DNA from: Spongiibacteraceae bacterium
GTDB lineage: Bacteria > Pseudomonadota > Gammaproteobacteria > Pseudomonadales > Dasaniaceae
Assembly: GCA_030621845.1 (NCBI GenBank)
Contig: JAUXHA010000004.1
Location: 1 to 64,000, forward strand
Length of the DNA: 64,000 nucleotides
Direction of reading: 5' to 3'
The position numbers and the translations under genes are program-made. Below the pieces are notes generated by a model. The model was not told where the DNA came from and searched no databases. It saw nothing but the letters and a program-made list of their open reading frames with translations. Below, piece after piece: positions 7,947-53,592 of this stretch. Numbering within the stretch: the first letter of the stretch is position 1; the number at the start of each line of letters is the position of its first letter.

Positions 7947-7990
7947 TTATTAAAAATTAAACTTACTCTGCTGCAACAATCGCAAGTCGT

Positions 7991-27392: not shown

Positions 27393-27473
27393 AAGGTGTA
27401 GTCTACGCTTTGTTCGGCTCAGCCAATTGCTTTGGAGGACCAACATGCTAGCAGCCGTACAGCCAACATCTCA

Positions 27474-30792: not shown

Positions 30793-32664
30793 ATGACAAT
30801 TCGCCGCCATACTTTAATAGTATTCTGTCTACCACTTTTAATTTCAACCTTTTCCCAAGCACAACAGCTCACCCCAAACAACGCCGAAAAAAAATTACTC
30901 TGGGGTGACACACATCTGCACACCTATCTGTCTCTTGATGCCTATCTGAATAAGAATTTCTCCATCGGCCCCGGCACCGCCTACCGCTTTGCCAAAGGTC
31001 TTGCGGTGGCTCACCCGGTTACCAATACTCCGGTACAACTGGAAACGCCACTGGATTTCCTCGTAGTCGCCGATCATGCTGAAAACCTCGGTGCTTTTAA
31101 ACGTGTTATTGAAGGAAATGCGCCTACTGAAGGCTTATCAATAGCCGGTAAAATGAAACTCTGGTTTTTCGGCCATTTATTTCGTTACTTTGCTAACAGT
31201 GACAATGGACTTGAGAAGCTCAGTAAACTGTATAAGCCAAAATCCATGGATGTGGTTGAAGCCGCTAAATACACCGATAGCTCACCCCTCCCCAATATTG
31301 AACGCATGCAAGCTGATGCCTGGCTGGAAACTATTAATGCCGCTGATGAACATAACGACCCTGGAAACTTCACCGCGTTTATTGGCTGGGAGTGGACATC
31401 AATACCCGCAGGTGCAAATCTCCATCGCGTTATTTTCACCAGCAGTAATGCGGAGGTTGCCCGCGAGTTTCAGCCATTTTCGTCCAACCACAGTAACTAC
31501 CCGGAAGATTTGTGGCGCTTTCTTGATGCAAGCTCACAGCAAACCGGTGCAGATTTCATTGCCATCCCCCACAACTCCAATGTCTCCCGTGGCTTCATGT
31601 TTCCAACGGAAAAAACTTTGCGAAATGCTCCCATCAATCAGCAGTGGATCGAGCTCAGGGCACGCTGGGAAAACGTTGTTGAAATAACCCAAATCAAGGG
31701 TGATTCAGAAACGGACCCGACCCTGTCACCGGCAGATCCTTTCGCGGACTTTGAATCTTACCCTTACTACCTTATCCCCGTCCCTGATCGCTATCAGCCA
31801 GACAAAGCCAGTTTTGTTCGGTCAGCCCTTCGTACTGGCCTGGCTTTGGAAAACCGTTATGGCCAAAACCCCTATAAATTTGGGCTAATTGGCTCAACAG
31901 ACTCCCATAGCGGCTTGGCGACCGCTGAAGAAGCTAACTTCTGGAGCAAGTACGCCAAAGATGCCTTACCAGGTAACAAGCTCAAACCCTTCGGTGAGAT
32001 TGAAAACTACGCTTGGCAAATATCGGCTTCCGGTCTGGCTGGCGTGTGGGCCGAGGAAAACACCCGCGAAGCGATTTTTGCAGCCTTCAAACGTCGCGAA
32101 GTCTATGCCACCACTGGCCCGCGTATAGCAGTGCGAATTTACGGTGGCAGCGACTTTAAGCCTGGCGATGAAAACAACCTCAACATCGCTCAATTATCCA
32201 CTTCGGCTGTGCCTATGGGGGGCGAGCTTAACAGCTTAAATAAAGCACCGTCCTTCGTAATTCAAGCAGCCAAAGACCCAAAAAGCGCCCATCTCGAGCG
32301 CATACAGATGGTAAAAGGCTGGCTTGATGGCACAGAAACGTTTGAAAAGGTTTACGACGTAGTTTGGGCTGGCGATCGCAACCCCGATGCCAACGGGCAA
32401 GTGCCGAAAGTTGCAGACAACGTTGATCCAAAAACCGGAAACTACACTAATGAGCACGGAGCAAGCACGCTTGCTGCCGTCTGGATTGATCCCGACTTCA
32501 ACCCTGAGCAACCGGCATTTTACTACGTTCGGGTATTGGAAATACCCACGCCAAGACACTCCACACTTGACGCCATAGCCATGAACATAAACGTTGAAGA
32601 AACAGGAAAGCCGGTTTCCCTGCAGGAGCGAGCGTATACCTCGCCGATATATTATTCGCCTTAA
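30793..32664 (+). CDS. DUF3604 secreted metallohydrolase-like protein
   Basis: This 623-residue protein has a signal peptide (residues 1-24). A metal-site motif GDTHLHTYLSLDA follows at 38-50, VADHAENLG a little later, and GSTDSHSG further on, as in the PHP-like DUF3604 family. Predicted metal ligands are the His and Asp residues of these motifs. The family is common in marine Gammaproteobacteria and its reaction is not firmly established; a periplasmic phosphoesterase- or lactonase-like activity is a guess. AAGGAG lies 7 bases before the ATG. A homologue lies at 35047-37152 on the other strand. A preceding 297-base gap holds TTGACA at 30716-30721 but no matching -10. Confidence 0.8.
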   Translation: MTIRRHTLIVFCLPLLISTFSQAQQLTPNNAEKKLLWGDTHLHTYLSLDAYLNKNFSIGPGTAYRFAKGLAVAHPVTNTPVQLETPLDFLVVADHAENLGAFKRVIEGNAPTEGLSIAGKMKLWFFGHLFRYFANSDNGLEKLSKLYKPKSMDVVEAAKYTDSSPLPNIERMQADAWLETINAADEHNDPGNFTAFIGWEWTSIPAGANLHRVIFTSSNAEVAREFQPFSSNHSNYPEDLWRFLDASSQQTGADFIAIPHNSNVSRGFMFPTEKTLRNAPINQQWIELRARWENVVEITQIKGDSETDPTLSPADPFADFESYPYYLIPVPDRYQPDKASFVRSALRTGLALENRYGQNPYKFGLIGSTDSHSGLATAEEANFWSKYAKDALPGNKLKPFGEIENYAWQISASGLAGVWAEENTREAIFAAFKRREVYATTGPRIAVRIYGGSDFKPGDENNLNIAQLSTSAVPMGGELNSLNKAPSFVIQAAKDPKSAHLERIQMVKGWLDGTETFEKVYDVVWAGDRNPDANGQVPKVADNVDPKTGNYTNEHGASTLAAVWIDPDFNPEQPAFYYVRVLEIPTPRHSTLDAIAMNINVEETGKPVSLQERAYTSPIYYSP

Positions 32665-35046: not shown

Positions 35047-37152
35047 CTAGCGATAGTCGACAAAAATAGGTGATGACCACGCTCTGGGTTCCGCTTCCGC
35101 CAGGCAGTTATTATCGCGGCTGGCTTCCTTGCCAATGCAGTAACGGCGTTTAACACACACACCCTGTTCGTCATACTCACAACCGAAGGGGTCGCCATTA
35201 ATCAACTGTTGCGGTTCCTGTATTGCACGTACGTAATAGAGGGCATCGCGGGCATCAGTGCTAAATTCAGTATCTTCAAACTCAATCACACAGCCATTGC
35301 CATCAGCCGGGCAGCTAAACACGCGCCAGTTATCATCTACCAGTGCAACAACGGCCTCATCGGGTGAGACCTGCGGCTTGATTTTAACCACCTCGATACG
35401 TGTAATCGCCTTGCGTTTATCGGTTGGATTATAACATTCACTCGCGCAGAGGAATTGCATGCGATCAACACCCAATACTCGCTCCGACGATGTTGGACAA
35501 CCGGGTTTTTGTTCAAAAGCGCCCAATGCTGTGACACGGAAACGGGGCACCGCCGACATTTTCACCTCACTACCCATCACCGCCTTCCCCCCAGGGCCAT
35601 TGAGCAGGTCAAACCACAACAGTATTCGCTCACCGGAGGTGGCATAAGTATTTCTGCTATTCAGCCCCTGCCAGATGGCATCACGATCACGCCCTTCAGC
35701 ATGTACAGCTACCAGCCCACCCGTATAGTAGAAACCACCCTTCTCCGGAGCAGCATTGATAAAACGCGCCAGCATACTGTCTTCACCCACTTCCTTGGTA
35801 TCAGTATAACGAATACGATCAGTCTCTTTATAACCCGTGCCGGGACTTGCCTGGTGATTATCGCTAGAGCCTATCAAGCCAAAGCGGCCCCGCTTGGGGT
35901 TGCCATTTTCATCAAAACCCAGTGCCAGGTTATATTGCGCCGATTGTCTGGGAACGTAATCAAAAGCGGGCTGAAAAGCATTGCCAAGTTGGCCACAACC
36001 CTGCCATTGCTCGGCGCCAAAATCACGCATAGCGCGACGACCGGCACTATCACCCTGCTCCAGAAAACGGCCAACTGCTTCTTCCACCTTTTGATTACAC
36101 ACCACAGCATCGGGCTCATCACAGCTAGCCCGAATCAACTGCCCGGCCACATGACAACATGGCGTAAAATTTTCTGTCGGCAAAGGGCAAAACACTTCCC
36201 CCGAGCCTTTCACACCAAACCGTTGAAAGTCGGCATAACGTTCAGAGTTGCCGTGCCCGGAGTAAACTTCCAGCAGTTTCTGGTAACGCTGGTCATGCTG
36301 ATCGAGCTGATTTTTAAAATCTGCCTTGGCAGGATTGGTCGTTCCCCAGGACAAACCGTGGGGAATCACCAGGCTATCAAAGCCCCATTCATCCAGTTTT
36401 CGGTAAAGTACCTTTGGTGTCAGGGCCACCTCACGACAGTCATCAGGCAACTGATCGGCAACAATGCCCTCAGCGCAGATGGGCACATTACTACTTTCAT
36501 GAGTGGCGTAATTAAACCCTGACATAGCCTCAATGCCCCCCATTAAACTCATTACACCTTTAACTACAGAGGGCACTTGCTCAATGGGGTAACTTTCCTG
36601 CGAGGCAATAGGGCGACTAGGCACCTGCCCCGGCTCCGAATTCAGAAATATGACATTCTTGTGACCGTAGTGTTGCTCGGGATCACTCGTGTTTCTATTG
36701 GACCATTCCCAACCAACAAAGGCCACCATGTCTGGATTGGCGGGATCACCAGCTTTTTCATTACACTGACGGATACTTGCCAGTGTATCCTGCCAGACAC
36801 GGGGCGACAGCCCTTCGGCGTGGTCGTTAATACTCCAGAAATCCAGCGCCGAACAATAACGAGCAAAATCACAGGCATCCGCTGGGGTAAACACGCCGCC
36901 ATTTTTTACCAGCGGCGAATTGAAAATAGCCGCGTCGAGGGAATAATTGCTATGTACGTGCAGGTCGCCAAACAAAACCTGCTGGTCTTCCGCAGCGGGA
37001 GTACCTACACGCTCACGCGGCCCATCGGCCACGTCTGCCGATGACCAGGGCTTGCCGTTCCAGCCAACCCCCAAACCATAGAGAACAAGAATCACCAAAA
37101 ACAAACTCAAAATCAGCATTGCGAAAATGCGTTTCAAACTGAATCTCGCCAT
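35047..37152 (-). CDS. DUF3604 protein, membrane-anchored
   Basis: This 701-residue paralogue of the 30793 gene has one N-terminal membrane segment (about 10-28) instead of a cleavable signal, then GDLHVHSNYSLDA at 62-74, NDHAEGL and GSSDNHQ metal-site motifs, and a cysteine-rich insert (about 230-380, several Cys pairs) that suggests an oxidised extracytoplasmic location. It is the last gene of the long minus-strand catabolic block, about 230 bases after ThuA. Its two-domain length and the paralogue pair imply related but different substrates. No reaction is assigned. Confidence 0.8.
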   Translation of the reverse strand: MARFSLKRIFAMLILSLFLVILVLYGLGVGWNGKPWSSADVADGPRERVGTPAAEDQQVLFGDLHVHSNYSLDAAIFNSPLVKNGGVFTPADACDFARYCSALDFWSINDHAEGLSPRVWQDTLASIRQCNEKAGDPANPDMVAFVGWEWSNRNTSDPEQHYGHKNVIFLNSEPGQVPSRPIASQESYPIEQVPSVVKGVMSLMGGIEAMSGFNYATHESSNVPICAEGIVADQLPDDCREVALTPKVLYRKLDEWGFDSLVIPHGLSWGTTNPAKADFKNQLDQHDQRYQKLLEVYSGHGNSERYADFQRFGVKGSGEVFCPLPTENFTPCCHVAGQLIRASCDEPDAVVCNQKVEEAVGRFLEQGDSAGRRAMRDFGAEQWQGCGQLGNAFQPAFDYVPRQSAQYNLALGFDENGNPKRGRFGLIGSSDNHQASPGTGYKETDRIRYTDTKEVGEDSMLARFINAAPEKGGFYYTGGLVAVHAEGRDRDAIWQGLNSRNTYATSGERILLWFDLLNGPGGKAVMGSEVKMSAVPRFRVTALGAFEQKPGCPTSSERVLGVDRMQFLCASECYNPTDKRKAITRIEVVKIKPQVSPDEAVVALVDDNWRVFSCPADGNGCVIEFEDTEFSTDARDALYYVRAIQEPQQLINGDPFGCEYDEQGVCVKRRYCIGKEASRDNNCLAEAEPRAWSSPIFVDYR

Positions 37153-37383: not shown

Positions 37384-38238
37384 CTATTCGTTCTCCAGTC
37401 GACCCGCCCAAATAATCGCTTGTTCAAGTATGAGCTGAATCCGCTGGTCCTCAAAGGCCTGGGGCTGATGCCCTAATGCCAAATAAAAAACGCGTCCGTC
37501 GCCCACGGTATGGCTCCAGATCACCGGGTGATCCTCGCCCATCGGCCACCAATTGGGGTCGTAGGTTTTTTCATCCACCGTTGCCAGCACAGTAGCCCCC
37601 TGTAATCGCGGGCTATGTTCAAAACTGTACCATTCCTCTTCCAGCTCCCAATACTCAGGCAAGTGCCGCATCGCCGGATGGTCGGCTCCCTCAGTATGCA
37701 CCGTAGCGGTTTGAAACTGTGGCCACATGGAGTGCATGGTAAAGTTCGCGCGAATTACTTTACTGACGTACCAATCCCAGTCGGCATGGGAGCCATCGCC
37801 GGCGGCATGAATACCGAGATAAGCTCCGCCACCTTCCAGGTAGCGCTCAAAGGCTGCCTGCTGGGCTGATAATAATACCGGGCCAGTGGCACTGTTCCAG
37901 ACCACCACATCAAACAACGCCAATTGCTCATCATTAAATACCGCGCTACTTTCGGTGACATAAACAGTCCAGCCACGACTGTCTTCCAGACGCTTAAACC
38001 AGGTATTAGCGGCATCGATGGCTTCGAAGTGACGAAAACCGTTAGTCTTGGAAAACACAAGAATGGAGGGGCGATTAAAATCCCCGGCCAGTTCAGGACG
38101 CTCAGTTTCAAAAACCGGTTCAGCAAACATTTGCGGCTGCTGCTGTTTCTGTTTGTAGATAAAGGAAGCGATCAATCCTGCCACTACCAGCGCCACAATC
38201 AGCAGAACAATTAACGTGTATTTAAAAACTTTTTTCAT
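37384..38238 (-). CDS. ThuA-domain protein, membrane-anchored
   Basis: This 284-residue protein has an N-terminal membrane anchor (about 8-27) and a ThuA-like glutamine-amidotransferase-fold domain: FSKTNGFRH near 59, DVVVWNSATGPV, GGAYLGIHAAGDG and PVIWSHTVGDGRVFY near the C-terminus. In known systems ThuA works with a Gfo/Idh-type ThuB on trehalose through 3-keto intermediates. The present copy is on the periplasmic side and shares an operon with a GMC dehydrogenase and its small subunit, which fits a role on 3-keto sugars or glycosides. Catalytic residues are not established in this family. Confidence 0.75.
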   Translation of the reverse strand: MKKVFKYTLIVLLIVALVVAGLIASFIYKQKQQQPQMFAEPVFETERPELAGDFNRPSILVFSKTNGFRHFEAIDAANTWFKRLEDSRGWTVYVTESSAVFNDEQLALFDVVVWNSATGPVLLSAQQAAFERYLEGGGAYLGIHAAGDGSHADWDWYVSKVIRANFTMHSMWPQFQTATVHTEGADHPAMRHLPEYWELEEEWYSFEHSPRLQGATVLATVDEKTYDPNWWPMGEDHPVIWSHTVGDGRVFYLALGHQPQAFEDQRIQLILEQAIIWAGRLENE

Positions 38239-38281: not shown

Positions 38282-38575
38282 TCAAGCAATGCCATCTTTT
38301 TTCAGTGCCCGCTTCAATAAAAAAGCCATCAACAAGGAAATTACTGCCAACCAGAACAGTGCCGGCTCATAGGGCATCATGCCTCGCATCCAGGCCATTC
38401 CGCGCAGGAAATTACAGTTGCCGCCCATGGAATAAATACAGTTCACCGAACCCATCAAACTCTCGCCAGTCTGCTTGGCAAGGAAGGAATACATCAACCC
38501 CCACCAGGCCAGTGAAATAATGCTAATCAGGACTCCGATCGTCATAAATATGTTTGCCAACTTTTTAGTTTTCAT
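38282..38575 (-). CDS. small two-span membrane protein
   Basis: This 97-residue protein has two predicted membrane segments (about 5-27 and 68-84) flanking a loop with CIYSMGGNC, a Cys pair that could be oxidised outside. It starts at 38575, where AAGGAGG precedes the ATG by 8 bases; the longer reading from 38596 has no such site. It sits between the GMC dehydrogenase and ThuA in one co-directional run. No family is recognised. A role as membrane anchor or electron-transfer partner for the GMC/small-subunit dehydrogenase is possible, but it has no CxxCH haem motif. Confidence 0.65.
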   Translation of the reverse strand: MKTKKLANIFMTIGVLISIISLAWWGLMYSFLAKQTGESLMGSVNCIYSMGGNCNFLRGMAWMRGMMPYEPALFWLAVISLLMAFLLKRALKKDGIA

Positions 38576-38616: not shown

Positions 38617-40314
38617 TTAAACCCGCCCTTCCCGTAATTGCTTGACCGCATAATCCGCTGCACGTGCGGTCAATGCCATATAGGTTATCGATGGATTAAC
38701 ACAGGATGATGAAGTCATCGCTGAGCCATCGGTGACAAAGAGATTGGGGATATCGTGGGCCTGATTCCAGGCATTGAGCACCGACTCAGCTGGGTCATGC
38801 CCCATACGCGCCGTACCCATTTCGTGGATGGCGTCCCCCGGCCCCCCGTCGGAAATGAAACTGGTAATATTGGTGACGCCCATACCTTTGAGCATTTCCT
38901 CGCCTTGCATAGCAATATCCTTGCGCATCTTATGCTCATTATCGCGAAAGCGAGCATCAAACCGTACCTGCGGGATACCGTAACGGTCTTTCTTCGTATC
39001 ATCCAGCATCATACGGTTATTGGCATTGGGCAATTGCTCACCAAAGCCGCCGGCAAAGGCGACCCAGGGACCCGGCGCACGCATGGCTGCTTTAAAGCGC
39101 GCACCGAAACCCGGCACCTGGCCGGAAAACATTTTCCAGTCCATACGCATGGCCGCGGTCTGGTAACCATAACCGCGGATAAAATCCCGGCCTTCATCCT
39201 GGCCGTTGAGATTCCTGAAACGGGGGATATAACAACCGCTAGGGCGATGGCCATAGGGATATTTGTCCATAAAGCCAGGAACGATGCCAAAGGCACCAGT
39301 GCCGTGGGTGTGATCCATCAGATAGCGACCCACAGCCCCGCTGCGATTGGCCAGACCATTGGGGAATGCCTCGGAGCGTGAGTTCAACAAAATTTGGGCA
39401 CTAGCAACCGTGGAGGCGCAGAGGAACACCAGTTTAGCAGTATAGGTGGTTTTCTCCATAGTTTGGGCATCGATCACCCGCACGCCGCTAATGCGTTTTA
39501 GTTCGGGGTCATAATCCAGTCCCTCCACCACGCTGTCAGCCCGGATAGTTAGGTTGCCAGTTTTTTTCGCTGCAGGCAGGGTTGAACTTAAACTGCTGAA
39601 GTAGGCGCCCGCCGAACAACCTCGATGGCAGGGGCCACAGTAATGGCAGGCACCGCGGCCATTCTTTGGCTCGGTCTGGACCGCACAACGACCAATGGTT
39701 AAGGTTCTATCGGGGTGAGACTTCGCCAGTCGTTTTTTCATTTCCCTCTCTACTACATTCATTTCCATCGGCTTCTGGAATTCACCATCGGGTAAATGTG
39801 GCAACCCCAACTTTTCACCACTGACGCCAGCAAATTCCTCGACATAGGAATACCAGGGAGCAATATCCTTGTAGCGAATCGGCCAGTCGATACCATGACC
39901 GTCTTTTTTATTGGCCTCGAAGTCCAGGTCGCTCCAGCGATACACCTGCCTGCCCCAGATGATGGAACGACCACCTAGTACGTCCGCACGTTTCCACTCA
40001 AAAGGCTTTTCCTTATCGTAGACATAGGGATTTTTTTTATCGTTATTAAAAAAATGTCGGCTAGTCTCGTCAAAAGCGTAAACATCACTCTGGATCGGAT
40101 ACTCTTCCTTATATAACTCGCGAAGTGGCTTACCACCGTAGGGGATTTCCCAAGAGGGCTTGTGCTCACCGGTATAATCCTTGCCATGTTCGATAGGGCG
40201 ACCACGTTCCAGCACCAGCACCTTCAGGCCTTTTTCACTTAACTCTTTAGCTGCCCAACCACCGGAAATACCGGAGCCCACAACGATGGCATCAAACTGT
40301 TCACTTGTTTTCAT
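38617..40314 (-). CDS. GMC-family FAD oxidoreductase (sugar/glycoside dehydrogenase type)
   Basis: This 565-residue enzyme has the FAD-binding motif VVGSGISGGWAAKEL at its N-terminus, the GGRSIIWG GMC signature, and the active-site pair His498 (HEMGTARMG) and Asn540 (VNPSITYMAL). Four cysteines (223, 226, 229, 233) form a C-x2-C-x2-C-x3-C cluster, which suggests an iron-sulfur relay as in FAD-dependent sugar dehydrogenases. Such enzymes oxidise a sugar hydroxyl, including C3 of glycosides, and pass electrons to a membrane chain. It follows the small-subunit gene by 26 bases, with AGAGG 7 bases before its ATG. No cytochrome subunit lies in the window. Confidence 0.85.
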   Translation of the reverse strand: MKTSEQFDAIVVGSGISGGWAAKELSEKGLKVLVLERGRPIEHGKDYTGEHKPSWEIPYGGKPLRELYKEEYPIQSDVYAFDETSRHFFNNDKKNPYVYDKEKPFEWKRADVLGGRSIIWGRQVYRWSDLDFEANKKDGHGIDWPIRYKDIAPWYSYVEEFAGVSGEKLGLPHLPDGEFQKPMEMNVVEREMKKRLAKSHPDRTLTIGRCAVQTEPKNGRGACHYCGPCHRGCSAGAYFSSLSSTLPAAKKTGNLTIRADSVVEGLDYDPELKRISGVRVIDAQTMEKTTYTAKLVFLCASTVASAQILLNSRSEAFPNGLANRSGAVGRYLMDHTHGTGAFGIVPGFMDKYPYGHRPSGCYIPRFRNLNGQDEGRDFIRGYGYQTAAMRMDWKMFSGQVPGFGARFKAAMRAPGPWVAFAGGFGEQLPNANNRMMLDDTKKDRYGIPQVRFDARFRDNEHKMRKDIAMQGEEMLKGMGVTNITSFISDGGPGDAIHEMGTARMGHDPAESVLNAWNQAHDIPNLFVTDGSAMTSSSCVNPSITYMALTARAADYAVKQLREGRV

Positions 40315-40340: not shown

Positions 40341-40931
40341 TCAATAGGACCACTGTTTGCCAATTTCGGAATAGTCAAAATCACCGTCATACTGCATGGG
40401 CATCGGGTTATAGCTCAACTCTTCGGTGGCACCTTTTTCCGAGGTGTAATAACCCAGTACAGTTAATTCTTTTAACTTGGTAAAGAAAGGCTTCTGTTCA
40501 TCTTCTTCCCGGCTCATAAACTGCGCAGCTTCGCCTTTATATTCCAGGCTGTCTTTCTCTGCCTGCTCCAGCGCCGCGGTCTGTTCCGTCCCGGAACAAT
40601 CGACAAAGCCCTTGCCGAACTGTTGCTGGCAATATTGATCCAGCGACACCAAGCCTTGCAAAAAAATCGCTCGCTCAGTATCGGTATACCAATCCGCTGC
40701 CATCATTTCGATAAAATTGGGCACCCCGGCATCAATTGCCCCGGGGGTATCAGTACGAGGAATAATTAACTCCGCGGCGATTTTCACTATTCCTTTGCCA
40801 TTGCTGTCGAATACTTGTCGAGTAGCAATACGACTCGAATTGACCCCGGCCAGTACCGCGGATGTTAATGAACTTGATAAGCTGCCACCTAACAATATGG
40901 CAGTGCGTTTGATTAATTCTCTACGATTCAT
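40341..40931 (-). CDS. gluconate 2-dehydrogenase subunit 3-family protein
   Basis: This 196-residue small subunit carries a twin-arginine signal (NRRELIKR, hydrophobic stretch ending at about residue 29) and the DTPGAIDAGVPNFIEMMAADWY signature region of the gluconate 2-dehydrogenase subunit 3 family. These proteins export and support a GMC flavoprotein subunit, which lacks a signal of its own and is carried across by Tat. That fits the GMC gene immediately downstream. A GGAGG ribosome site sits 8 bases before the ATG. The pair would form a periplasmic membrane-associated dehydrogenase. Confidence 0.85.
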   Translation of the reverse strand: MNRRELIKRTAILLGGSLSSSLTSAVLAGVNSSRIATRQVFDSNGKGIVKIAAELIIPRTDTPGAIDAGVPNFIEMMAADWYTDTERAIFLQGLVSLDQYCQQQFGKGFVDCSGTEQTAALEQAEKDSLEYKGEAAQFMSREEDEQKPFFTKLKELTVLGYYTSEKGATEELSYNPMPMQYDGDFDYSEIGKQWSY

Positions 40932-40984: not shown

Positions 40985-42463
40985 TTAACGAATAGACTCT
41001 TCCGGCAGTTCCGCCTTGATACCCTGGTCGATTGGCATTTGGTCTGGTGTGGCCCCGCTGTTTATTAGTAGCGCCGTCAAATTAGCACGCATGATATTTA
41101 ACTGCCCGGCGTGCTGTTTGTCATCCACCAGATTAGTCAGCTCCAGCGGATCGTTTACCACATTGTAAAGTTCTTCCTTGTGGCGCAATGGCCCACCATC
41201 GCCGTGAGGATACTGCATATATTTCCAATCCCCGGTACGAATACCACGTACATTAGGGGTATAGGGAAATTCCTTTTCGTAGTTGTATTCATAGAGCCAA
41301 CTGTCGCGCCACTGGTCGCTAGCGCCGCTGGCGATGCCAACCCAGGACAGCCCCTGGGCGCCGGGTAATTCACCGGCTCCGGTTAACTCCATTAAGCTTG
41401 GTGCCAGGTCCAGGCTCAGCACCTGTTGCTCAACCACCGTACCCGCCTTGAAACGACCGGGGTAGCGAACCACCATCGGCACTCGCACACTGGCTTCATG
41501 CATGGTGCGCTTGTCGATCATGCCGTGTTCACCGATCAAAAAACCGTTATCGGAACTAAACACGATAATAGTGTTGTCAAGCACAGCAAGTTTTTTCAAC
41601 TCGGTATAAATTCGGCCAACACTATCATCCACTGAATTAATAGTAGCTGTGTAATGGCGGGCAAAGCGTTCAAAATCACTTATTGCTTCGGGACGGGTAT
41701 CCGGATAATTTTTACGAAAGCCATACAGCGGGCCATAGATTCCGTGCCAGGTTGGCAAACGCTCTTTCACCCAATCGGGTTTACCCTCTAACTGAAACGC
41801 GCTGTCGGGATAAGGCACAGCCACGTTGTCATAGAGATGTTCGTATTTCGGCTCTGGAATAAACGGCCCATGCGGAGCTTTGTGTCCTAACACCAGAGCA
41901 AAGGGTTTATTGGGATCACGCTGCGCCAGCCAGTCAATCGCCATATCAGTCACCACATGGCTGTAATAACCGGCGATAGTTTTACGCTCGCCATCGACAT
42001 TAAATGTAGTGTCATAGTACTTACCCTGCCCCTTATGACTCACCCAGTAATCGTAACCCGGGCGCCGTGAGTCATCGGCCTCACCCATATGCCATTTGCC
42101 GATATAAGCCGTCTGGTAACCCGCCCTCTGCAAAGCCATGGGAAAACTTTCTAATGCCCTCGGGTAATCGGTGAAATTATCGCGCACACCATGGGTATGG
42201 GCATAGGTTCCGGAAAGAAATGAGGCCCGACTCGGTGAACATAGCGACGAGGTCACAAACATATTATTGAAGCGCACACCTTCTTCGGCCAAACGATCAA
42301 TGTTCGGCGTTTCTATTCCGAGGAAAGATTGCTGGTGATAACCCACTGCATCCCCACGCTGGTCATCAGTGAGAATAAACAGCACATTGGGTCGCTCAGT
42401 GAGTTTCCCAAACGTCATACTGCTTAACAGCGATAGCATAGTTGCCAGCAAAATAGTCTTCAT
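40985..42463 (-). CDS. secreted type I sulfatase (Cys-type)
   Basis: This 492-residue sulfatase has a signal peptide (about 1-19), the calcium-binding LTDDQRGDAVG near residue 31 and the formylglycine site CSPSR with Cys75. Later the KAPHGPF and DNGFLIGEHGM segments add further active-site residues. The start at 42463 is supported by AGGAG 8 bases upstream; a longer reading from 42505 is less likely. It would act in the periplasm or outside, removing sulfate esters from a glycan or glycoside. It follows glucokinase by 34 bases in the same direction. No formylglycine-generating enzyme or anSME is encoded in the window. Confidence 0.9.
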   Translation of the reverse strand: MKTILLATMLSLLSSMTFGKLTERPNVLFILTDDQRGDAVGYHQQSFLGIETPNIDRLAEEGVRFNNMFVTSSLCSPSRASFLSGTYAHTHGVRDNFTDYPRALESFPMALQRAGYQTAYIGKWHMGEADDSRRPGYDYWVSHKGQGKYYDTTFNVDGERKTIAGYYSHVVTDMAIDWLAQRDPNKPFALVLGHKAPHGPFIPEPKYEHLYDNVAVPYPDSAFQLEGKPDWVKERLPTWHGIYGPLYGFRKNYPDTRPEAISDFERFARHYTATINSVDDSVGRIYTELKKLAVLDNTIIVFSSDNGFLIGEHGMIDKRTMHEASVRVPMVVRYPGRFKAGTVVEQQVLSLDLAPSLMELTGAGELPGAQGLSWVGIASGASDQWRDSWLYEYNYEKEFPYTPNVRGIRTGDWKYMQYPHGDGGPLRHKEELYNVVNDPLELTNLVDDKQHAGQLNIMRANLTALLINSGATPDQMPIDQGIKAELPEESIR

Positions 42464-42497
42464 CGTTCTCTCTCCTGCGCAACCTCGTTTAATAAGC

Positions 42498-43460
42498 CTA
42501 TGCATTATTTTTTAAAGCCTGTACACAACCGCTCAATCCCGGGTAAGGCGCCTGCACAATCGCCAGTGGGATTTTTTCGCAGTAGGCGGAGAAGCGTCCC
42601 TTCAATTCGAAACGCCGCCGAAAGTTTTCCTCGTCGAGAAATTTCACAAAAAAGTTTTCTTCACTAAGGAATTTTTTAATATGCTCGAGCATTCCCCCCG
42701 AGAGATAGACGCCACCTTCTGCCCCCATCATCAGAGCGACTTCACCGGCCACCGAGGCAAGAATTGAAAAGAAATCAAACATCGCCTGACAGCAGCAGCT
42801 GTCGCCAGCCAGCGCCCCTGCCGTCACTTGTTCCGGCGACATTTCACCTGGCTCGCCCTCGAGACAGCTATTAGCCCAGTACAAATTGGACAAGCCCATA
42901 CCGGATAACAGCCGCTCAACAGAAACCCTGTCAAAGCGTCGCCACAATACCTCCAGCAAAGCTACTTCCCGTTCATCAATCGGCGCGAAAGCTAAATGCC
43001 CCGCTTCGGAAGGCAGCGGTTGGCCCCCGGGCATCAACGCCGATACACCCAGACCAGTACCAGGACCCAGCACCGCCTTGACCTTTTTCCCCTCGGGTCG
43101 CGGAGAGCCAATCCAGTGAAAGTCCTCTTCCTTGAAGGCATCCAGCGCCAGTACCTGGGCGCTAAAGTCATTGATGATCTGCAAGGGAATTCCCAGGCTT
43201 TGTTGCAAGGAAGAGCAACTGAACTGCCAGTGGTTATTAGGCAAATCAATCCAGTCCGATTCAACCGGTCCTGCCACCGCCGCACACACACCCTGCACCT
43301 GGCTCAGCGCCTCCGCCTCAATGTAGGCCTTAAAGGCCTGCTCAACCGTGGCGAAATCCGAACAGTGAAATACCCCAATAGCTTCCAGCTCACCGCTGTC
43401 GATGTCCACCTGGGCGAAACGGGCATGGGTGCCACCAATGTCGGCTACAAGATGCATCAT
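42498..43460 (-). CDS. glk: glucokinase (Glk family)
   Basis: This protein of about 320 residues begins with HLVADIGGTHARFAQVD, the phosphate-1 loop of the bacterial glucokinase family, and later shows AGPVESDWIDLPNNHW, INDFSAQVLAL with the catalytic aspartate, and GPGTGLGVS. It phosphorylates cytoplasmic glucose to glucose 6-phosphate with ATP. The ATG at 43460 overlaps the MFS stop codon (TGATG), so the kinase is coupled to the sugar transporter. Its place in this locus implies that free glucose, or a close analogue, is an end product of the pathway. Confidence 0.88.
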   Translation of the reverse strand: MMHLVADIGGTHARFAQVDIDSGELEAIGVFHCSDFATVEQAFKAYIEAEALSQVQGVCAAVAGPVESDWIDLPNNHWQFSCSSLQQSLGIPLQIINDFSAQVLALDAFKEEDFHWIGSPRPEGKKVKAVLGPGTGLGVSALMPGGQPLPSEAGHLAFAPIDEREVALLEVLWRRFDRVSVERLLSGMGLSNLYWANSCLEGEPGEMSPEQVTAGALAGDSCCCQAMFDFFSILASVAGEVALMMGAEGGVYLSGGMLEHIKKFLSEENFFVKFLDEENFRRRFELKGRFSAYCEKIPLAIVQAPYPGLSGCVQALKNNA

Positions 43461-44764
43461 CAAGCCCCGTCAGTAATCGGGGATGACTTGCGCGATCGAT
43501 CGACTAGCCAGATCAGGCCAAACACCGGCAATAATATTAACGGTGCCATAGCCACCGACTGGAAAGACTCTATCGAAGCGTAACGCAGCACGCTTGTCAT
43601 CGCCTCAGGCGGGAGCGCGGCCAACTGCTCAACACCGCCGGCCGCTTCAACCTTGGCCGCATCAAAAATAGCGCCCATTTTCGGCAACACAAACTGAATC
43701 GACATGCCGCCAGCAAATCCCATTAAACCCATCGCCAATGCGCCGCCTCGTGGAAAGCGCTCGGCGACAATGGCCAACATGGTCGGCCACATATAACAAA
43801 CACCAATACCCCATACCGTCGCCGTAGCAAAGGCACTCGCTGGCGAACTGGCAATACTTAAACCGTAGAGACCAAGGGCAGCAGCCACACAACTGAAAAA
43901 CATTAAACCCACCGGTGACAGTTTCTCGGCAATCGGACCGGCAAAGTGACGCATCACAAACATCAGCGCACTGACATAAACCAGCAATAAAATACCCTGC
44001 ATGCCCACCATATTTGACAAGGAGATATTGACCCACTGGCCGGGTGCCAATTCCGCCGCAGCGGTTAAATACATACACAGCCAGAACACCCAAAACATCG
44101 GACGCTTTAACAATTCAGCAAACATCTCGCCATAACTAACGCCGGAGGCGACCCGCTCGGTGACGGGAAACACCGAAGTCGCCACCAGCCAAGCCATGAT
44201 CAGGGCGGGGATCAATAACACCAGTACATTCAACTGCCAGGCCAGCCCCAGCGAGGTAATCGCCACACCAATCAAACCACCAACCACAATACCCGCGGGC
44301 CACCAGGCATGCAGGACATTCAGGCGATGGGTTTTTTGTTCCGGGTACAGTGCGGCAATCATCGGGTTGGAGGCCGCTTCCACGGCACCCCAACCCAGAC
44401 CGGTTAACAGCAAACTCAATAGTACAACCCGCTCCACGAGAACACTTACCGGTATCAGGGATGCCGCCAGCAAGCCGAGAGAACCAGCAATATAAGCACA
44501 GGCTGAAAATAATAAAATTTTCTTCATCCCGACCAGGTCCACCAGAACACTGCCGAACAACAGCGTCAGGGCAAAACCGGTAAAGGTTATTCCCAGCGCT
44601 TCACCCACCATAGCGGCGGAATTGGCCAGGTCGATCTCATTGTAAATATCAGTCTGTAAATCCGGCGCGATAGTGGCACGCACTGCAAAACCCAGACCAA
44701 TCATAAAAATCGACAAATTACCGACATAGTACAAACGTTTGCGATCCAGTCCTGCTGTGTTCAT
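43460..44764 (-). CDS. MFS sugar transporter
   Basis: This 434-residue protein has twelve likely membrane segments and the two-half layout of the major facilitator superfamily, with an intracellular loop after the second helix (SVLVDLVGMKKILL). It resembles FucP/GlcP-type sugar:proton or sodium symporters in overall layout, though I cannot point to a diagnostic substrate motif. Coupling to glucokinase (overlapping stop and start) and a 13-base gap to the TIM-barrel gene support uptake of a monosaccharide released in the periplasm. Confidence 0.8.
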   Translation of the reverse strand: MNTAGLDRKRLYYVGNLSIFMIGLGFAVRATIAPDLQTDIYNEIDLANSAAMVGEALGITFTGFALTLLFGSVLVDLVGMKKILLFSACAYIAGSLGLLAASLIPVSVLVERVVLLSLLLTGLGWGAVEAASNPMIAALYPEQKTHRLNVLHAWWPAGIVVGGLIGVAITSLGLAWQLNVLVLLIPALIMAWLVATSVFPVTERVASGVSYGEMFAELLKRPMFWVFWLCMYLTAAAELAPGQWVNISLSNMVGMQGILLLVYVSALMFVMRHFAGPIAEKLSPVGLMFFSCVAAALGLYGLSIASSPASAFATATVWGIGVCYMWPTMLAIVAERFPRGGALAMGLMGFAGGMSIQFVLPKMGAIFDAAKVEAAGGVEQLAALPPEAMTSVLRYASIESFQSVAMAPLILLPVFGLIWLVDRSRKSSPITDGA

Positions 44765-44776
44765 AGCGACCTCTCT

Positions 44777-45838
44777 TTATTCCAAACCGAGGATACGGCG
44801 ATTACTTGCCTCATCCACCCCGGTGCCAGCAAAGTCATCAAAGGCTCTGTCAGTGGTGCGAATAATGTGCTGCTCAATAAACGCCGCGCCCTCGGCGGCG
44901 CCATCTTCCGGATGCTTTAAACAGCACTCCCACTCCAGTACCACCCAACCTGCATAAGCGTATTTGGCAAACTGGCTGAAGATGGCACTGAAATCGACCT
45001 GACCGTCACCCAGTGAGCGGAAACGGCCAGGCCGATCTACCCAGTCCTGATAGCCTCCGTAGACGCCGGACTTACCATTAGGCCTGAACTCCGCATCCTT
45101 AACGTGAAACATCTTGATGCGCTCATGATAGAAATCGATGAACTGCACATAATCCAGCTGCTGTAATAAAAAGTGACTGGGGTCGTAGAGAATATGACAG
45201 CGTGGATGATTGCCAGTGGCCTCCAGAAAACGTTCGAAGCTGACGCCGTCATGCAGGTCCTCACCGGGATGAATTTCGTAACAGAGATCTACACCTGCTT
45301 CATCATAGGCATTGAGAATCGGTAACCAGCGATCGGCCAGCTCGGCAAAACCGGCTTCCACCAACCCCTCCGGGCGCTGGGGCCAGGGGTACATAGTGTG
45401 CCAGAGCAAGGCACCGGAAAAAGTCGCATGGGCATCGAGCCCCATATTCTGGCTGGCTTTGGCTGCCAGCAGTAATTGCTGCACTGCCCATTCCTGGCGC
45501 GCCCTGGGCTTGCCCCTCAAGGCAGCGGGAGCAAAGGTATCGAACTGCTCGTCATAGGCGGGATGTACCGCCACTAACTGGCCCTGAAGATGGGTGGACA
45601 ACTCACTAATTTCCACACCGTATTCGGCGCACTGCCCTGTTAATTCATCACAGTAGCTCTTACTCTCGGCGGCTTTTTCCAGGTCAATTAAAGCGGACTC
45701 CCAGCTCGGCAGCTGCACGCCTTTGTAGCCCAGGTCACCAGCCCACTGTGCGATAGCAGGTAGAGAATTAAATGGCGCCTGATCGCTGGCAAACTGGGCC
45801 AGGAATATCCCCGGCCCTTTCATTTTTGATGCTTTCAT
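44777..45838 (-). CDS. sugar phosphate isomerase/epimerase-family TIM-barrel protein
   Basis: This protein of about 353 residues has the xylose-isomerase-like TIM barrel with a complete set of metal ligands: CYEIHPGEDLHDG, LYDPSHF, FHVKDAEF and VVLEWEC carry the expected Glu, Asp, His and Glu. Relatives include sugar epimerases and enzymes that cleave 3-keto-glycosides. It pairs with the Gfo/Idh dehydrogenase just upstream (35-base gap), a combination known from C- and O-glycoside deglycosylation systems. Start at 45838 is chosen because the longer frame begins inside the neighbouring gene and shows no family-like sequence. Confidence 0.8.
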   Translation of the reverse strand: MKASKMKGPGIFLAQFASDQAPFNSLPAIAQWAGDLGYKGVQLPSWESALIDLEKAAESKSYCDELTGQCAEYGVEISELSTHLQGQLVAVHPAYDEQFDTFAPAALRGKPRARQEWAVQQLLLAAKASQNMGLDAHATFSGALLWHTMYPWPQRPEGLVEAGFAELADRWLPILNAYDEAGVDLCYEIHPGEDLHDGVSFERFLEATGNHPRCHILYDPSHFLLQQLDYVQFIDFYHERIKMFHVKDAEFRPNGKSGVYGGYQDWVDRPGRFRSLGDGQVDFSAIFSQFAKYAYAGWVVLEWECCLKHPEDGAAEGAAFIEQHIIRTTDRAFDDFAGTGVDEASNRRILGLE

Positions 45839-45872
45839 TTTTAATCCATTTTTTTCAAGATAAAACTCTTTC

Positions 45873-47039
45873 TCAGTGTTCGGCAAAGCGATGCCATTTC
45901 TGATCACTGGCACTGGCGCTAACCGCCAATTCAATAAAGGTCATGCCACGCACAGCCTCATCTATTCCCGGGCAATCGCTTGACGCTTCGGGGTTGCGAA
46001 TAGTCCCGGCAAAAGCCCGATAAATATTAGCGAAGGCTTCCAGGTAACCTTCCGGATGCCCCATCGGGATACGGGTATTGGCCGCCGCCATCTCGCCCAG
46101 GTAAGTGCCACCGGTGCGCAGTACTTCGGTGGGACGATCAGGCCACTTCAAGCACAGCGTGTTGGGTTCCTGCTGACACCATTCCAGCCCGCCCTTTTCG
46201 CCATAGACTTTAATCGTTAGAGCATTTTCTTCGCCGCTGCAAACCTGGCTGGCGGTAAGTACGCCCCTGGCCTGATTATTGAAACGTAATAAAATGGAGC
46301 CGTCATCATCCAGCGACCTGCCAGGCACCAATGAAGATAAGTCAGCGCAAAGTTCATCAATCTGTAAACCACTAATGTATTCGGCAAGGTTAGCGGCATG
46401 GACACCGATATCCCCGATACAACCACTGACCCCGGCGGTTTTTGGATCCAGTCGCCACTGAGCTTGCTTGTTAGACTCGTCCTGCTGGCGATCTGCCAGC
46501 CAGCCCTGGGTATATTCCACCAGCACCTTGCGGATTTCACCCAATTCCCCGGCCTGGATACGCTGGCGAGCTTCCTTCACCAGGGGATAACCGGTATAGG
46601 TATAAGTCAATCCATAGCACAAGCCAGAACCTTCCAGCAATGTGCGAAGTTGCAGCACTTCATCGAGGTTCAGGGTCGCCGGTTTATCGGACAAGATATG
46701 GAAGCCTGCCTCGATGGCAGCGCGGGCAATAGGAAAGTGATAGTCATTGGGCGTCACAATCACCACAAACTGCATCCGCTGGCTCGCCGGTAGCGCCGCC
46801 TCCCTGGTCATCATCGTCAGATAATCGGGGTAAATACGTTGCTCATTGAGCATCAATGCGCGTCCTGAGCGCAGGGAGCGTTTGGGATCGCTGCTGAAAG
46901 CACCACAAACCAGTTCAATTTCACCGTCCAGTGCCGCAGCCATACGATGAACTGCACCAATAAAAGCGCCCTCACCACCACCAACCATTCCCATCCTGAG
47001 TTTTTCCGCCCGGGGTTTATTTCCCTTGAGTGTATCCAT
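45873..47039 (-). CDS. Gfo/Idh/MocA-family oxidoreductase
   Basis: This protein of about 388 residues has an N-terminal Rossmann domain with [13 protein letters not shown], the VTPNDYHFP and SDKPATLN loops (Lys of the DKP motif probably catalytic) and the C-terminal domain with [13 protein letters not shown]. Such enzymes oxidise or reduce sugar hydroxyls, often at C3, using NAD(P). ATG at 47039, with AAGGA 8 bases upstream, is preferred to ATG at 47045. It starts 10 bases after the LacI gene and is followed by the TIM-barrel gene. It is likely to supply or consume a 3-keto sugar in the pathway. Confidence 0.88.
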
Positions 47040-47049
47040 TGTCATTTCC

Positions 47050-48072
47050 TTATTCTCCGGCGACCAGTGCCGCCGTCGACTGTCGTAGCACTAATTCATG
47101 GGGTAGCATTTCCCTGGCATTAGGAACATGGCGCTCATGCAATAAATCCAGCATCCGCTGCATCGCCACTTCCCCAATACGATTGCGGGGTTGTCGCACC
47201 GTAGTCAGGGGTGGATCACAATAGGCAGAGAACTTAATATCATCAAAACCCATCAAGGAAATATCACCCGGCACTGACAAACCCCTGGCCTTGATGCACT
47301 GCAGGGCACCAATCGCCATGGCGTCATTGGCGCAAAACACCGCTGTAGGTAAAGGGTCTTCGCTATTGAGTATTGCCGTCATCGCCTCGCGCCCCGCATC
47401 GAGACTAAAGTCACCGTTAAACACCAGTGAACGGGTATTACTAACCCCGACAGCCTTCATTGCCTGTCGATAACCCTTAATACGGTCAAGGCACAGGGGC
47501 GAATTCTCAGGCCCATTAATATAGGCAATACGCCGGTGTCCCAACGCTATTAAATAATCAACTGCTTCGCGAGCGGCGTTAAGATTGTCGATACACACTG
47601 TTGGCACCGGGATCATCCCGTCGTATTCACAAACCATAACAAAAGGTGGCCACTTGGGATCAATGCTCTTGCGGCCCGCCCGGTACTTAAACGGAATGGT
47701 TTTCCCCAATGAAATTATGCCATCGGCCTGGCGCTGTGCAACCAGTTCACCGTACTCCAGGGCACGCTCGGGTTTGTTTTGCATGTCCACCAATAAAATG
47801 CGGTAACCATTATCATGGGCCACGGACTCAATACTCTGAATGATATTGGAAAAAAAACTGTTGGTAATATCCGGTACCAGCACCACCACGGTATTAGTGC
47901 GACGGCGGCGGAAATTCCGCGCCAGCGTATTGGCCACATAACCACTCTGCTCCACCGCCTGCATCACTTTATTACGCGTAGTCTCGGCGACCTTATCCGG
48001 CTTCGACAGGGTACGCGATACGGTGGCGGTGGACACACCGGCCAGTCGCGCTACATCCTTAATTGATGTCAC
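47050..48072 (-). CDS. LacI-family transcriptional regulator
   Basis: This 340-residue repressor has the N-terminal helix-turn-helix and hinge (SIKDVARLAGVSTATVSRTL, then SGYVANTLARNF), followed by a periplasmic-binding-protein-like sensor domain for a sugar or sugar derivative. It starts with GTG that overlaps the stop codon of the upstream sulfatase gene (GTGA), so it is made with the catabolic enzymes. The two TGTAAACGTTTACA-type palindromes in front of the TonB receptor gene at 53551-53586 are its most likely operators, which makes it the local repressor of the block. Confidence 0.9.
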   Translation of the reverse strand: MTSIKDVARLAGVSTATVSRTLSKPDKVAETTRNKVMQAVEQSGYVANTLARNFRRRRTNTVVVLVPDITNSFFSNIIQSIESVAHDNGYRILLVDMQNKPERALEYGELVAQRQADGIISLGKTIPFKYRAGRKSIDPKWPPFVMVCEYDGMIPVPTVCIDNLNAAREAVDYLIALGHRRIAYINGPENSPLCLDRIKGYRQAMKAVGVSNTRSLVFNGDFSLDAGREAMTAILNSEDPLPTAVFCANDAMAIGALQCIKARGLSVPGDISLMGFDDIKFSAYCDPPLTTVRQPRNRIGEVAMQRMLDLLHERHVPNAREMLPHELVLRQSTAALVAGE

Positions 48073-49727
48073 GGCTTCACCACCTCGCTTTCCTCCCAGC
48101 CGTAACGCACTGCCTTGGCTTCTATGCCCTGCCCTGGCTTCAGGACCACAGGGCGGGTATAAACTTGCCAGTCACCCCCATCAATACGATAACCGATGGA
48201 AGCATGGGCTTCGCGATTCTCCATCCATACCCGACCTTCGCGAACACTGATGATCGGCGCGGGAGTTTGCGGCTGTTCACCCCCGGGATTGAAACGCTCT
48301 ACCATTACCACTTCCGGCTCATCACTCCAATCCTCAACCCGCTGCTGCCAACTCCCCAGCGCACCACGCAAGCGCGCCAACACCGATGCCATTGCCGGAT
48401 CAGCTGACAGATCATTGAGCTCATAGGGATCACTCCAGGTATCGAACAGACGCTCCTTTCCCGGTGGCATAAACCACAGCAGCTGCACTTCGTTGAGCTG
48501 CCCGGCGTCCTTAAGTACCCATAACTCACGCATCATTTCCATATTGTCACGATAGCTCAGCGGGTGCCCCCCCTCCTGCTGCGGGTACCAGCTGCGAATA
48601 TATTTATAGCGGTGATCGCGCACTGCCCGCTGGCGATCCTCAATGGCATCGATACGATCCCGTGAGGCGAAGATATACTCACGAGCTTCTAAGTCAGGGT
48701 TGCTAAAATCCCTGCCCTGTAAATAGGCCGGCGCCGGAACACCCGCTAAAGCCAACACCGTGGGCGCCAGGTCAACAAAGCTGATCAGGCGTTCATCCAG
48801 AGAACCCGGCACGACCCCATCGGGTCGATAAGCCTCTGGCCAGCGGATGATCATTGGCACTTTTATTCCGGCGTCATAGAGTTCGCGCTTGGCTCTGGGC
48901 AATCCATCGCCGTGATCGGTAGTCCAGATCACAATAGTGTTTTCAGCGAGTCCGTCTGCTTCCAATTGCGCCAGCAGTTCCGCGACCTGTCTATCCATAG
49001 CGGCAATATTATTATAGTGCCTGGCCATATCGCTACGTACCGTTGGCGTATCCGGGTAATAGGGCGGCACGATTATGCTGGCAGGATCAACCTCACTGCT
49101 AACCTCGGGCAAGTTCCTCCCCCAACTCCTTATCACCTGCATAGCAAAATGCATCGCGCTATTGGGCCAGTGTCCCAGTGGAAGAAATACTCCGCTCTCG
49201 TGGGTTACATCAAAATTCACCAGACCGTAAAAGGATTGGCCTGGTTGACGATTACGCCAGTGAGTATCACCGCCTTCATCACTCCAAATGGTAAAGGGGC
49301 CGCTGCCGTAGATGGGGCCACTGAACTGGTAATCGAGCTTATGATTGGTATACGTGTAATAGCCCGCCGCCCGCAACAACTCCGGATAAGCTTTAAGCTC
49401 AGCGGGAGGCACGGCCTTATAGGCTCCCGCAGGCCGCGTTGACGTCCGCATGTGCTGACCACCCCAGGAGATCTGGTGCATGCCAGTGATATGAGCAGCT
49501 CGACTGGGGGCACAGACACCCGCTGTGGTAAATGTGTTAGGGTAACGAACACCCTCCTTTGCCAATTGGTCGAGGTGGGGCGTCACGGCAACGGCATCGC
49601 CAAACGCGCCTACCCGATCACTCATATCCTCGGCCATTAAAACCAGGATGTTGGGCTGTCCACTGGCGGCTACGGCCGCATTAAGCAGGAAAAAATTGGC
49701 CCATAAATAGCTAATAATTTTGTTCAT
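48069..49727 (-). CDS. secreted type I sulfatase (Cys-type)
   Basis: This 552-residue sulfatase has an N-terminal export signal (about 1-22), MAEDMSDR near residue 31 for the metal, and the formylglycine site CAPSR with Cys72. TTDHGDGLPRAKRELYDAG holds later active-site residues. It resembles the heparan N-sulfatase-like branch (DHGDG, CAPSR) more than the arylsulfatase A branch; this is a judgement by eye. A C-terminal domain of about 100 residues looks beta-rich, perhaps for binding. The gene starts 5 bases after the previous sulfatase and its stop overlaps the LacI start. Confidence 0.88.
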   Translation of the reverse strand: MNKIISYLWANFFLLNAAVAASGQPNILVLMAEDMSDRVGAFGDAVAVTPHLDQLAKEGVRYPNTFTTAGVCAPSRAAHITGMHQISWGGQHMRTSTRPAGAYKAVPPAELKAYPELLRAAGYYTYTNHKLDYQFSGPIYGSGPFTIWSDEGGDTHWRNRQPGQSFYGLVNFDVTHESGVFLPLGHWPNSAMHFAMQVIRSWGRNLPEVSSEVDPASIIVPPYYPDTPTVRSDMARHYNNIAAMDRQVAELLAQLEADGLAENTIVIWTTDHGDGLPRAKRELYDAGIKVPMIIRWPEAYRPDGVVPGSLDERLISFVDLAPTVLALAGVPAPAYLQGRDFSNPDLEAREYIFASRDRIDAIEDRQRAVRDHRYKYIRSWYPQQEGGHPLSYRDNMEMMRELWVLKDAGQLNEVQLLWFMPPGKERLFDTWSDPYELNDLSADPAMASVLARLRGALGSWQQRVEDWSDEPEVVMVERFNPGGEQPQTPAPIISVREGRVWMENREAHASIGYRIDGGDWQVYTRPVVLKPGQGIEAKAVRYGWEESEVVKP

Positions 49728-49731
49728 AGAC

Positions 49732-51222
49732 TCAAACCTTTCTCAGGCGACGCACAGCGAGACGCAGTAAACGATAGCACGCGTAAAGTATCGCCACCAA
49801 AATAAGCAATAGCGGCAGACCAAGAATTAACAGCGGTTTTAGCAGTACCTCATAACCTTTTCGATCCGAGGCGGTGCCACGCATAATACGCTGGCGAATA
49901 TTTTCCCGGCCCAGCGAGGCTTCAAAGTCGGCAATCGCTTCACTCATGATCTGCACCCGCTCGGGGTACTGCTCAGCCAGGTTATTACTTTCATTGGGAT
50001 CTTCGGCGAGGTTAAACAATAATGTGCCGTGGGCGTAAAAACCCGCGTGCAGTATCCCCTCCAAAAAACGGGGATAGCCCTTGCGCGTCAATTTTAATTT
50101 CCAATCGCCATCGCGCAGGGCCACGGTATTGCTACCGCGACTACCCTGATAGAAAAACTGCTGGTCACTGCGAGCACCCGTGCCTTTCAATACCCCACTG
50201 ATATCGCGACCATCAATTACCCGATCACTGGGCAGGGTCACTCCCACCAGTGTCGAAAAAGTCGGAAACCAGTCCATCATCGTTGCCATTTTTGACTCGA
50301 CCCTACCTGGGGCAATGACCGCAGGCCAACTGGCAATAGTCGGCACGCGCTGACCACCTTCAAAGGCAGTGCCCTTGCCATCACGCAACTCGCCGGTACT
50401 GCCGCCATTATCCTGCAGTAGCAACCAGGGACCGTTATCACTGCTAAAAACCACCAGCGTATTTTCCCGCAGACCCAGCACCTCCAGTTCCTTGATAATC
50501 TCACCAGTACTCCAATCCAGCTCTTCCACTACATCACCGTAGAGACCGCCTTTCGATGTCCCCTCAAAATCAGGGGAGGCATAAATCGGCACGTGGGGCA
50601 TACTGTGAGCCAGGTAGAGAAAGAAATGCTGATCCCGATGGCGGCGAATAAAATCTATCGCCTTGCGGGTATAACGCTGGGTCAAGTAGTGCTGGTCAAT
50701 CTCTTCGTATAGCGGTTCACGGTTTTCATAGAAGAACAGATTACCCATATCGTTGCTAAAGGGCACACCGTAGAACTCATCAAAGCCCTGCTGCCATGGC
50801 ATGTAACGATCCTGGGAGCCGAGGTGCCATTTACCCACCATACCCGTACTATAACCGGCAATTTTCAATTGCTCGGCGATGGTAATCTCACTCGGATCCA
50901 TGCCATCAGGGCTGTCGTACATAAACACATGCTCGATGCCCAGACGTGCAGGATAGCGACCGGTGAGTAAAGCGCCACGCGCCGGTGAACACACAGAGGA
51001 AGCAGAATAAAATTCGGTGAATTTAATACCACTTTCCGCCAATTGGTCCAGGTTCGGTGTATGGATGGTGGTCGAGCCATAGCTACTTAAGTCACCATAG
51101 CCCAGATCATCGGCAAAGATGAATATAATATTGGGGCGCTCAGTCTGTGCTAGCACCGCTGAAAAGGGTAATAGCAACACCAGGCCCATCACCAAAGCAA
51201 TGACTCTTTGCGGCTTATGCAT
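49732..51222 (-). CDS. arylsulfatase-type sulfatase with C-terminal membrane anchor
   Basis: This protein of about 496 residues has a signal-like N-terminus (about 10-25), FADDLGYGDLSSYG for the metal, and the formylglycine site CSPAR with Cys78. The GKWHLGS and SSDNGPW elements follow as in arylsulfatase A-type enzymes. A long hydrophobic segment with an arginine-rich end (LLILGLPLLLILVAILYACY) anchors the C-terminus in the membrane, which is unusual next to three soluble relatives. ATG at 51222 is supported by GAGG 6 bases upstream. A hairpin separates it from the TonB receptor gene, so its expression may depend on read-through or its own promoter. Confidence 0.88.
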   Translation of the reverse strand: MHKPQRVIALVMGLVLLLPFSAVLAQTERPNIIFIFADDLGYGDLSSYGSTTIHTPNLDQLAESGIKFTEFYSASSVCSPARGALLTGRYPARLGIEHVFMYDSPDGMDPSEITIAEQLKIAGYSTGMVGKWHLGSQDRYMPWQQGFDEFYGVPFSNDMGNLFFYENREPLYEEIDQHYLTQRYTRKAIDFIRRHRDQHFFLYLAHSMPHVPIYASPDFEGTSKGGLYGDVVEELDWSTGEIIKELEVLGLRENTLVVFSSDNGPWLLLQDNGGSTGELRDGKGTAFEGGQRVPTIASWPAVIAPGRVESKMATMMDWFPTFSTLVGVTLPSDRVIDGRDISGVLKGTGARSDQQFFYQGSRGSNTVALRDGDWKLKLTRKGYPRFLEGILHAGFYAHGTLLFNLAEDPNESNNLAEQYPERVQIMSEAIADFEASLGRENIRQRIMRGTASDRKGYEVLLKPLLILGLPLLLILVAILYACYRLLRLAVRRLRKV

Positions 51223-51260
51223 GACTATCCTCAAACTCAGCAAGTGTACAGAAGAAAAAA

Positions 51261-51278
51261 GGTGACCCTGGGGCCACC
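51261..51278 (-). terminator. intrinsic terminator after TonB receptor gene
   Basis: Read on the minus strand, GGTGGCC and GGTCACC form a 7-pair stem (one G-U pair) around CCAG-type loop bases, followed by a run of six T. It lies just past the receptor stop codon and could end or attenuate the transcript before the sulfatase genes. A smaller hairpin (GCCT/AGGC) precedes it. Confidence 0.55.
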
Positions 51279-53550: not shown

Positions 53551-53586
53551 TGTAAACGTTTACACTATAAAATGCAAACGTTTACA
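53551..53586. promoter_or_regulatory. tandem LacI-type operators
   Basis: The perfect palindrome TGTAAACGTTTACA (53551-53564) and TGCAAACGTTTACA (53573-53586) share a central AACGTT core and stand 22 bases apart centre to centre, two helical turns. They are the clearest LacI-family sites in the window and overlap the receptor promoter. They could also affect the divergent P450 gene. Confidence 0.8.
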
Positions 53587-53592
53587 TTTCAC
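53564..53592 (-). promoter_or_regulatory. promoter of TonB receptor gene
   Basis: On the minus strand GTGAAA (53592-53587) and TATAGT (53569-53564) are separated by 17 bases. One operator fills the spacer and the other covers the start region, which is the expected arrangement for repression. Confidence 0.55.

Follow-up and report, generated by a model that had tools for sequence, protein, structure and literature searches.

The DNA analysed here, a stretch of 64,000 nucleotides from a Spongiibacteraceae bacterium (the window), carries two palindromes in front of a gene for a TonB-dependent receptor. The sequence evidence supports the view that they are LacI-family operators placed over the predicted receptor promoter, and that the LacI protein encoded in the same block is their natural partner.

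The palindrome pair and the predicted receptor promoter

53551–53564, no strand assigned: Operator 1, TGTAAACGTTTACA, a perfect 14-bp palindrome that covers the point where transcription of the receptor gene is predicted to start
53573–53586, no strand assigned: Operator 2, TGCAAACGTTTACA, a copy of TGTAAACGTTTACA matching at 13 of 14 positions, inside the -35/-10 spacer
53564–53592, minus strand: best promoter-like match for the receptor gene, GTGAAA-17 bp-TATAGT (9 of 12 positions, a consensus match only)

A perfect palindrome and a 13-of-14 copy, one inside a -35/-10 spacer and the other over the start region, had been described in an earlier note made from the sequence alone, and this description is borne out: the sites lie where they were placed, their centres are 22 bp apart, and the arrangement fits the best minus-strand promoter match (53592–53564). 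The spacer of this match (53570–53586) holds Operator 2 entire, and Operator 1 overlaps the predicted -10 by its final base and spans the expected start. Operator 2 also extends to a 20-bp palindrome, AAATGCAAACGTTTACATTT (53570–53589), with one broken pair. The two centres lie about 74 and 96 bp upstream of the receptor ATG at 53483. LacI-family sites have a central CG and are found mostly 30–140 bp upstream of their genes, and the distance between tandem sites peaks at 22 bp, which Ravcheev et al. 2014 read as cooperative binding of two dimers (PMC4052901). TGTAAACGTTTACA is indeed an even palindrome with a central CG, and the pair at 53551–53586 has precisely this peak spacing.

Single 14-bp palindromes are common, and since the window contains 2 of them against a mean of 4.4 in Markov simulations, a lone one carries little meaning. 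However, a perfect 14-bp palindrome accompanied within 60 bp by a copy differing in at most one base occurred in 0 of 60 simulated windows. That the sites are chance palindromes, or belong to an unrelated regulator, is scarcely credible when two copies stand 22 bp apart at a promoter, follow the LacI consensus with its central CG and are conserved beside LacI relatives. A scan of the 2.84-Mb genome, for which the earlier note had called, found these two as the only sites with one mismatch or fewer (0 with a reversed-pattern control; about 0.013 exact matches expected genome-wide). At 3 mismatches it returned 70 sites against 73 in the control, with no excess, and weaker matches therefore carry no signal.

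We also screened 390 genomes of the order for palindromes of this kind in pairs 0–30 bp apart. Tandem pairs were present in six genomes from about four lineages, and every gap was 7, 8 or 9 bp; if gaps were evenly spread, such clustering over four lineages would arise with a probability of about 9e-5. Three of the six genomes form one lineage, in which the pair lies beside a LacI gene. In genomes L060, L061 and L062, all of one genus, palindromes 22 bp apart are found beside another LacI gene, opposite a separate gene row.

The suggestion that the P450 gene on the other side of the pair might share its control fared less well. The P450 gene begins 194 bp away from the nearest operator, with other plus-strand promoter-like sites closer by, and the nearest P450 relatives found (41–62% identical) have no such motif nearby. 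A plus-strand match, TTTACA-18-TACATT at 53559–53588, is built from the operators and would favour divergent promoter control of receptor and P450 by the pair, but it stems from the operators' own symmetry, and we consider such control unlikely.

The LacI repressor and its relatives

47050–48072, minus strand: LacI-family repressor with a helix-turn-helix (HTH; 47929–48066) and a periplasmic-binding-protein-like domain, the proposed operator-binding protein

This protein scores over the cut-offs of PF00356 and PF13377 and is thus a member of the LacI family. CytR gives its best NCBIfam score; at 368 bits this is below the 436-bit cut-off, and identity with the CytR equivalog was rejected. CcpA and PurR are its closest solved structures by sequence. 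It differs from CytR- and CcpA-like proteins in its local gene setting, as opposed to nucleoside or global control. The proposal that the block's own repressor acts on the pair gains from two observations: 47050–48072 is the one LacI-type HTH gene detected in the genome (83.6% complete), and its relatives adjoin the same or a similar palindrome.

All 8 related loci whose LacI protein reaches 42% identity had a site with at most 2 mismatches within about 1.5 kb; among 21 loci whose LacI genes are more distant, only 3 did (Fisher p 4e-5, for a grouping chosen after the data were seen). The closest LacI, about 70% identical in its N-terminal third, comes from a genome of the same family (G005), which retains the GMC, small-subunit, sulfatase, MFS, hydratase, Gfo and LacI genes as a cluster and has an exact TGTAAACGTTTACA just before the Gfo gene. 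Its lacI is disrupted by frame changes, likely a sequencing error because other genes of that locus have them too. In G081 and G024, TGTAACCGGTTACA precedes the Gfo-hydratase genes, the variant site before Gfo in G081 adjoining a divergent lacI; in G060 the variant TGTAAACGATTACA lies between lacI and divergent ThuA-GMC genes. A single-protein LacI scan of genome contigs gave only relatives at most 43% identical, of which one was useful, from Halobacillus, with TGTAATCGGTTACA near its LacI gene. Two further genomes, G008 and G004, carry the identical exact site near LacI genes (44–45% identical) with other neighbouring genes, and the motif is therefore common to related repressors and not unique to the orthologue. 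In the syntenic relatives sites are single or widely spaced, with no tandem pair among them, and no motif was found beside relatives of the TonB receptor (37–52% identical), some of which adjoin sulfatase or ThuA/GMC genes even without the operator.

This sharing of the motif by several LacI proteins in relatives, together with the incompleteness of the genome, raises the alternative that the sites, though LacI-family operators, belong to a different LacI protein, one missing from the assembly. We regard this as very unlikely: the block itself holds the sole LacI HTH gene found, and the exact site is present in the syntenic G005 cluster, whose LacI is the closest.

Given the observed sequence, spacing, genome uniqueness and conserved pairing with related repressors, the palindromes very probably constitute a tandem LacI-family operator, bound by the 47050–48072 repressor, that blocks the receptor promoter until a sugar inducer releases it. 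A repressor dimer would sit on each site, the two being 22 bp apart on one face of the helix and presumably cooperating, and RNA polymerase would be blocked at that promoter as long as they stayed bound. The inducing sugar, probably the glycoside taken up or a product of its breakdown, would release the repressor; transcription would then continue beyond the receptor gene, reading through a weak terminator to reach the sulfatase, repressor and sugar-enzyme genes.

The gene row and a probable autoregulatory loop

51297–53483, minus strand: TonB-dependent receptor (PF00593, PF07715), likely ATG at 53483, preceded by GGGGAG
51255–51278, minus strand: terminator-like hairpin and T-run after the receptor stop, a proposed partial terminator (z -1.68 against shuffles)
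49732–51222, minus strand: sulfatase with a C-S-P-A-R motif, likely ATG at 51222
48069–49727, minus strand: sulfatase with a C-A-P-S-R motif, overlapping the lacI start by 4 bases
45873–47045, minus strand: Gfo/Idh/MocA oxidoreductase, a proposed 3-keto-glucose reductase (putative step)
44777–45934, minus strand: TIM-barrel enzyme, 71% identical over 347 aa to 2-hydroxy-3-keto-glucal hydratase (PDB 8ro4)
43460–44764, minus strand: MFS transporter
42498–43463, minus strand: glucokinase (TIGR00749, over cut-off)
40985–42505, minus strand: sulfatase with a C-S-P-S-R motif
40341–40931, minus strand: Gluconate 2-dehydrogenase subunit 3-like small subunit
38617–40314, minus strand: GMC oxidoreductase, a proposed glycoside 3-dehydrogenase (putative substrate)
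37384–38238, minus strand: ThuA-domain protein, which may belong to the same row

Downstream of the receptor come, with small gaps or overlaps, two sulfatases, lacI, Gfo, the hydratase, the MFS transporter, glucokinase, a sulfatase and the GMC pair. A small minus-strand reading frame of about 97 aa (38283–38575; ATG near 38575, AGGAGG before it) separates the GMC gene from the ThuA gene. Downstream of the sugar block, two long DUF3604-like proteins are encoded (30793–32664 and 35047–37152), of which Pfam confirms only the second. Elsewhere in the window, 2046–13945 is taken up by two polyketide/peptide synthase-like genes of very large size (1966 and 1984 aa); the second has what by eye is a luciferase-like monooxygenase segment.

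The earlier note had envisaged a closed loop, and this holds in part: lacI is in the same block, but between the receptor stop (51297) and the ATG at 51222 there is a hairpin, GGTGGCC-CCAG-GGTCACC, followed by six T, so that the loop needs read-through. As lacI is the fourth gene in the row, three genes downstream of the receptor, autoregulation of the repressor, though likely, would be indirect and depend on transcription passing this point. The hairpin may act as a partial terminator or internal attenuator that favours the receptor over the enzymes. Were it a complete terminator, the sites would control the receptor only, the sulfatase-LacI-enzyme row would have its own promoter and no autoregulatory loop would exist. 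We find this rather unlikely, for although the hairpin and T-run at 51278–51255 speak for it, the hairpin is only moderately stable relative to shuffles, only about 30 bp separate the T-run from the next ATG, and the gap from the receptor stop to that ATG contains no promoter-like match and no operator.

A predicted route for sulfated glucosides

The translations of the three sulfatases carry the C-x-P-x-R motif, which suggests sulfated substrates, and the hydratase, GMC dehydrogenase, Gfo protein and glucokinase suggest the breakdown of glucosides to glucose 6-phosphate. The row as a whole suggests glucoside uptake, desulfation and 3-keto-sugar breakdown to glucose: the desulfated glucoside would be oxidised at C3, cleaved, hydrated, reduced to glucose and phosphorylated. 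AtHYD has 2-hydroxy-3-keto-glucal hydratase activity, and its A. tumefaciens operon cleaves glycosides by oxidation, elimination, hydration and reduction (PMC10628242); the levoglucosan pathway of B. smithii is analogous (PMC7676230). The present row resembles the GlycDH-AtOGE-AtHYD-Gfo operon of A. tumefaciens (PMC10628242) and the B. smithii levoglucosan operon (PMC7676230) in having a hydratase-type TIM barrel beside Gfo, and its predicted 3-keto-glucal hydratase and Gfo reductase are in keeping with this oxidation-elimination-hydration-reduction scheme. In contrast to both operons, it includes sulfatases, a TonB receptor, an MFS transporter, glucokinase and a GMC-type dehydrogenase, and no dedicated beta-eliminase was identified in the row; another TIM barrel, at 26415–27446, matches distant structures only. 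We would put forward only tentatively, at rather less than even chances, the fuller picture of a TonB locus under LacI control that would use sulfated glucosides although its row has no identified glycoside hydrolase: the sulfatases strip the sulfate, the 3-keto route of oxidation, elimination, hydration and reduction leads to glucose, and the hairpin keeps receptor output high and that of the enzymes and repressor low.

The operator pair is real and its partner well supported, and since the 22-bp spacing and frequent autoregulation (72% of LacI-family cases) have already been reported (PMC4052901), the regulatory design is known: a textbook-style sugar switch, with no new mechanism. RafR of Enterobacteriales and ScrR of Burkholderiales, with tandem operators at 21–22 bp (PMC4052901), are the systems for comparison, sharing two central-CG palindromes 22 bp apart, the position upstream of sugar genes and a repressor in the locus. 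They differ in repressor group and targets, the first gene here being a TonB receptor and the row being rich in sulfatases, and a literature search on the combination of LacI, TonB receptor and sulfatase gave no match. The regulator-operator pair offers a clean, testable case for a sulfatase-rich locus, and in several genera it connects a LacI regulon with the 3-keto-sugar hydratase cluster.
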